Shown one piece after another: positions 55,893 to 57,173 of a DNA stretch of 64,000 nt (positions within the stretch are counted from its first letter, which is position 1; the number at the start of each line of letters is the position of its first letter). Where the stretch lies: assembly GCA_030645575.1 (NCBI GenBank), contig JAUSMJ010000029.1:1-64000 (forward strand). The letters run 5' to 3'. This DNA is from Caulobacter sp. Lineage in GTDB: Bacteria > Pseudomonadota > Alphaproteobacteria > Caulobacterales > Caulobacteraceae. The notes under the pieces were generated by a model, which was given only the letters and a program-made list of their open reading frames with translations, was not told the DNA's origin and ran no database searches. The position numbers and the translations under genes were made by a program.

Positions 55893-57173
55893 TCAGCGCT
55901 GCTTGATCGCCCGTCGCCCAGCATACACCGCCTGGTCGTCCAGCTGCTCCTCGATGCGCAGCAACTGGTTGTATTTGGCCAGCCGGTCGGAACGGGCCAG
56001 CGAGCCGGTCTTGATCTGTCCGCAGTTGGTGGCCACGGCCAGGTCGGCGATGGTCGAATCCTCGGTCTCGCCCGAACGGTGGCTCATCACGGCGGTGTAG
56101 CCGGCCCTGTGGGCCATATCGACGGCGTCGAGCGTCTCGCTGAGCGTCCCGATCTGGTTGACCTTGACCAGGATCGAGTTGGCCAGGCCCTTGTCGATGC
56201 CCAGGGCCAGCCGCTCGGGGTTGGTCACGAACAGGTCGTCGCCGACGATCTGGATCTTCTTGCCCAGCGCGTCGGTCAGCAGCTTCCAGCCGTCGAGGTC
56301 GTCTTCCGAGCAGCCGTCCTCGATCGTTACGATGGGGAACTTGCCAACCAGCGCCTCGAGATAGGCGACCATGCCGGCCTGATCGAGCGTTTTGCCTTCG
56401 CCTTCAAGCACATACTTGCCGTTCTTGAAGAATTCCGTGGCCGCCACGTCGAGGCCCAGCACGAAGTCCTCGCCGGCGCGGAAGCCGGCCGCCTCGCCGG
56501 CCTTGACGATGAAGGCCAGCGCCTCCTCGGCCGAACCGATGTTGGGGGCAAAGCCGCCCTCGTCGCCGACGTTGGTGTTATGGCCAGCGTCCTTGAGGGC
56601 CTTTTTCAGGCCGTGGAAGATCTCGGCGCCCATGCGCAGACCTTCGGAGAAGGTCGCCGCCCCGGTGGGCAGGATCATGAATTCCTGGATATCGATCGGA
56701 TTGTCGGCGTGGGCGCCGCCGTTGATGATGTTCATCATCGGCACCGGCAGCACGCGGGCCGAGACGCCGCCGACATACTTGTAGAGCGGCAGGTCGGCGC
56801 TGACGGCGGCGGCCTTGGCCGCGGCCAGGGAGACGCCGAGGATGGCGTTGGCGCCCAGCCGGCTCTTTTACTACGTGCCGTCCAGGTCGATCAGCAGGCT
56901 ATCGATCCGCCGCTGGTCCTCGGCATCGACGCCGCCGAGGGCGTCGTAAATCTCGCCATTGACCGCGGCGACCGCCTCCAGCACGCCCTTGCCGCCGTAG
57001 CGGCTCTTGTCGCCGTCGCGCTTCTCGACCGCCTCGTGGGCCCCGGTGGAGGCGCCCGACGGCACCGCTGCCCGGCCGAACGATCCATCCTCGAGGATCA
57101 CATCGACCTCGACCGTCGGATTGCCGCGGCTGTCGAGGATTTCGCGGGCGATGATATCGACGATCTCGGTCAT
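55893..57173 (-). pseudogene. eno: Enolase gene interrupted by tandem in-frame stops TAG TAA
   Basis: The frame from ATG 57,173 (after GAAGGA) reads MTEIVDIIAREILDSRGNP onward as a full-length enolase of 426 codons. It is broken only at codons 101-102, where LLIDLDGT is followed by TAG (56,871-56,873) and TAA (56,868-56,870) and then KSRLGANAILGVSLA in the same frame. Relatives have two ordinary residues there, typically PN. All other active-site blocks are intact: SGASTGAHE, DEGGFAPN, LDVAATEF, KVNQIGTLSE, SHRSGETED, KTGSLARSDR. A sequencing or assembly error, a recent inactivation with a second eno elsewhere, or recoding are the options. Enolase is normally essential. Confidence 0.85.

Follow-up and report, generated by a model that had tools for sequence, protein, structure and literature searches.

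Enolase (Eno, phosphopyruvate hydratase) is recognised by an N-terminal and a C-terminal domain, PF03952 (Enolase_N) and PF00113 (Enolase_C). In the accessible text of PMC5118466, INSeq analysis of Rhizobium leguminosarum lists eno insertions as 'NE' on rich TY medium and as 'GD' on mannitol minimal medium, where 'NE' is read as non-essential. By analogy, such tolerance would make an alphaproteobacterial eno null conceivable on complex substrates. Among the spontaneous substitutions of C. crescentus, the accessible text of PMC7198004 gives A:T to G:C transitions as the most prevalent, and A:T to T:A transversions occur likewise.

We analysed a window of 64,000 nucleotides from Caulobacter sp. 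whose eno gene is interrupted by TAG TAA at codons 101-102, and it is in this that the gene differs from described enolases. It is otherwise an ordinary single-copy enolase, with both domains, a full frame, one copy in the assembly, a dehydrogenase E1 gene nearby and a stretch collinear with that of genus relatives. It resembles a recent bacterial pseudogene formed by nonsense mutation in that stops interrupt the frame of a gene that is normal elsewhere. It departs from such a pseudogene in that the stops are two, adjacent and the result of three clustered changes, the gene is not decayed beyond them, and no second, intact copy was found in the assembly. As with consensus or assembly errors in draft genomes, the double stop is isolated and confined to one assembly, and a near-identical protein and the relatives contradict it, but the contig around it has no excess of odd changes. 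The most likely reading, which we hold with moderate confidence, is that the sequence or its assembly is locally in error in this one genome. A new mechanism of gene reading is probably not indicated.

The enolase gene and its internal stop codons

The gene occupies 55893-57173 on the minus strand, with 426 codons and a stop, the start MTEIVDII and an ordinary enolase frame. The initial annotation had reported two consecutive in-frame stops within it, and both translation and the Enolase_N search bear this out. TAG (56873-56871) and TAA (56870-56868), on the minus strand, are the sole internal stops in the translation of 427 codons, the last codon being the terminal stop, and both flanks are open in the same phase. 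At the site the plus strand reads GGCTCTTTTACTACGTGCC and the minus strand ACG TAG TAA AAG AGC. The N-terminal part, codons 1-100 (56874..57173, minus strand), matches PF03952 over profile positions 1-97 of 131, with residues 4-100 of the piece, and all 131 positions are matched when the stops are read through. Genome-wide, the Enolase_N profile has a single match, which contains one TAG and one TAA. Codons 103-426 with the stop (55893..56867, minus strand) continue in the phase of codons 1-100 and carry Enolase_C without stops, the gene scoring 429.5 bits against PF00113. The N- and C-terminal domains of an enolase are therefore found in one frame, and the coding frame is interrupted by TAG TAA.

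Expression as two fragments, one of the explanations first offered, would require that residues 1-100 and about 141-426 are both made and assemble into an enzyme. A 286-codon open reading frame (55893..56753, minus strand) does open at the GTG of codon 141, the first ATG, GTG or TTG past the stops, and the rarer candidate starts CTG (codons 106, 116 and 128) and ATC (codon 111) lie closer to them. However, codons 103-140 hold the conserved RLGANAILGVSLA block and none of the three common start codons, so that a piece beginning at 141 would be made without this block, and we consider the two-fragment explanation very improbable.

Next to eno, the intergenic region 57229-57420 also contains a 'cggacaagccgggccatgac'-like segment, present in inverted copies, along with a short tandem run of GGGAGGAT.

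Codons 101 and 102 in related genes

Most named relatives high in the lists for this gene belong to Caulobacter and other Caulobacterales. The near-identical protein P0001 is a full-length enolase with Lys-Asn at residues 101-102, and 5 of its 424 remaining residues differ from those of the window gene. It is encoded on a short contig of 2,983 bases, without a shown source. For the protein alignment, 83 of the 120 listed proteins were used, namely the first 90 minus P0019, P0059, P0064, P0065, P0072, P0082 and P0086, with P0091-P0120 left out. Asn102 is invariant in these proteins (83/83), and 62 of them have Lys at residue 101.

A comparison of the closest relatives at the two codons had been proposed, and it gives sense codons in all that align there. 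These are 29/29 fetched genus loci, drawn from 35 genus relatives with a match, and 78/80 further GTDB loci, the best 80 of 587, the remaining two being unaligned at the site; the genus and GTDB sets may overlap. All 107 readable loci have AAC or AAT as codon 102, while codon 101 is AAG in 9/29 genus loci and 6/78 GTDB loci. No stop was found in the aligned stretch, residues 1-200, of the 109 other loci. The three nearest genomes (G025, G026 and G011) all read AAG AAC, that is Lys-Asn, at these positions, and the change from the nearest relatives thus takes three base changes rather than the four or so from Pro-Asn that had been estimated.

The profile searches agree. Enolase_N matches 72 of 75 genus genomes, the window's own included, and only the row of the window has stops, which favours an error in this genome and stands against a genuine null allele. 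In a class-wide draw 357/385 genomes match, and among the matches listed stops occur in this genome only. When the 100 N-terminal residues were used as a query, 7,998 matches resulted, of which 120 are listed; the top one, P0121 (97%), continues with Lys-Asn. One listed protein, P0204, of 100 aa and 84% identity and given without a contig, terminates at the same residue as the N-terminal piece. It was set aside as an independent sighting of the stops: given lengths of 93 to 171 among the 120 listed, nine of which were read, its end is probably a fragment end.

These comparisons also bear on programmed recoding, in which readthrough of the stops would yield a full-length enolase. The exactly kept frame and the conserved remainder of the gene speak for readthrough. 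Conservation of the in-frame stops, as expected of readthrough or reassignment, is nevertheless seen in no relative compared, and the residue to be restored at 102 is Asn in every aligned protein; to our knowledge, Asn is not among the residues commonly inserted at UAA or UAG. The genome contains 41 Rfam tRNA matches, whose anticodons were typed with ARAGORN, and a suppressor anticodon, CTA or TTA, is present in none of them. The RNA fold downstream of the stops is unexceptional: its z is -1.78, and two relatives with an intact gene have -1.00 and -1.42. Readthrough of eno, like its split expression, is unlikely, and the recoding explanation is the least credible of all those considered.

Enolase copies and lower glycolysis in the assembly

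The assembly (G000) has 3,200,018 bases in 83 contigs and is 99.89% complete and 2.97% contaminated; its contig count and contamination suggest that it is metagenome-derived. The genome search called for in the initial annotation found no second enolase in it: Enolase_C matches once, and so does Enolase_N, for which relaxing the threshold to E <= 1 brought up nothing further. The intact paralogue that would mark an ordinary pseudogene is therefore not found within the assembly. Such a copy might nonetheless be unbinned or unassembled, with the window gene as the pseudogene. P0001 would suit this role, being on a short contig without a shown source, and 2/72 matching genus genomes (G064 and G072) carry a pair of Enolase_N matches that are complete or nearly so. 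Moreover, neither enolase domain was found in the genus member G086, which is 99% complete, and G079 (91% complete) has only a C-terminal enolase piece at a contig end, so drafts of the genus do lose parts of eno. On the other hand, the window copy is collinear with G025, G026 and G011 and occupies the standard locus. A hidden second copy is improbable on this evidence. Of the four explanations initially put forward, sequence or assembly error and very recent inactivation remain, readthrough and fragments are disfavoured, and a second eno was not found in the assembly.

Very recent inactivation ranks second and is a possible though doubtful explanation. It holds that TAG TAA is a genuine null allele created by one multi-nucleotide mutation, leaving no working enolase, and that the strain would live on substrates feeding both sides of the block. 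The insertions that survived on complex medium in Rhizobium leguminosarum (accessible text of PMC5118466) are in its favour. So is pyruvate kinase (PF00224), for which no match was found in this genome, when all 14 control genomes match, Caulobacter vibrioides included; this absence would fit a real loss of lower glycolysis and thereby counts against a local error. In contrast, PGK is intact. A tRNA gene with anticodon GGA (Ser) is expected in any such genome, and none is present among the 41 tRNAs, so that gaps in the assembly are likely and the missing pyruvate kinase may be one of them. For phosphoglycerate mutase PF06415 there was no match here, nor in the Caulobacter vibrioides control, and the result is uninformative. 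A fuller scenario, in which a free-living Caulobacter-like bacterium is losing its lower glycolytic trunk, with pyruvate kinase already gone, its sole enolase newly disabled by a single mutational event, and the metabolism of sugars and acids divided at phosphoenolpyruvate, is unlikely.

If real, the allele would mark a free-living alphaproteobacterial lineage that naturally lacks enolase, and would offer a test of the dispensability of lower glycolysis on mixed carbon sources. In the listed literature on enolase pseudogenes and tandem stops, we noticed no description of a double stop occurring naturally in an enolase gene.

The base change and the quality of the contig

The change from AAG AAC to TAG TAA consists of three transversions within six bases. 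It had been described as odd for random decay, and rightly so: under a uniform model, the probability that three independent random substitutions produce any tandem stop pair in eno is about 2e-8, so that one clustered event or an artefact, and not stepwise decay, is probably responsible. Transversions also argue for a local error, since C. crescentus favours A:T to G:C transitions; against this, A:T to T:A changes are found in that species too (both from the accessible text of PMC7198004). A null allele would moreover need one stop only, and leaves the second without explanation.

Two sources for a clustered event were tried and rejected. Eight base differences from G025 in codons 96-105 suggested a recombination patch, that is an imported segment, but P0001 has the flanking Asp96 and Ser104 too, and only the two stop codons remain odd. 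As for a template copied from elsewhere in the genome, the 18-mer that spans the stops, searched with at most three mismatches, matches itself alone, and a control with the pattern backwards gave 4 matches. The lack of a near copy elsewhere adds to the case for a local error.

When eno is read through, it departs from columns conserved at 95% or more at three positions besides the stop (Gln265, Ile309 and Leu324); departures from those columns in the 83 other proteins range from 0 to 11, with a mean of 1.5. Gln265 and Ile309 are common to the window gene and P0001, as they are absent from the listed differences. The uncommon residues Ala118 (2/83 others) and Leu324 (0/83) are in the window gene and not in P0001, and they could be a hint of relaxed constraint, which would support a null allele and weigh against an error. 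Judged by its sequence, the gene is without other clear decay besides the stop pair. The undecayed state of the gene, the intact Lys-Asn of near-identical P0001 when this is the only enolase in the assembly, and the sense codons of all relatives compared are why we prefer a local error; the first two of these also tell against the null allele. With a local error, codons 101-102 would be sense codons in the living cells, which would make a normal enolase, and we infer that TAG TAA would find no support in reads from the organism. The caution to be drawn in that case is that a core gene can look dead in a draft genome that is 99.9% complete.

The state of the contig, by comparison, counts against an error and in favour of a genuine null allele. 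The window lies within contig C48 of 95,110 bases, and the stop site is deep inside it. When coding-like genes were compared with G025 (37 genes), G026 (27) and G011 (11), stops inside the gene body were placed in eno only. More open reading frames with stops had been flagged at first, most of which were dropped by a third-position filter. Four frames besides eno survived the filter and were read individually; three have stops ahead of the conserved body, and the fourth, 42328-42723 (68% identity, third-position share 0.51), was considered as a broken gene and taken as non-coding. Runs of adjacent private amino-acid changes over 13,251 shared codons numbered 46 in the window, 74 in G025 and 45 in G026, counted in 51 frames, some of them antisense, and with two private stops included in the G025 frames. 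Genome-wide, none of the 44 ABC_tran (ABC-transporter) matches contains a stop. On a contig of otherwise good quality, the double stop thus has the look of an isolated event.

Elsewhere in the window, at 59607-60139 on the minus strand, two small open reading frames with a 4-base overlap resemble a toxin-antitoxin pair by appearance.
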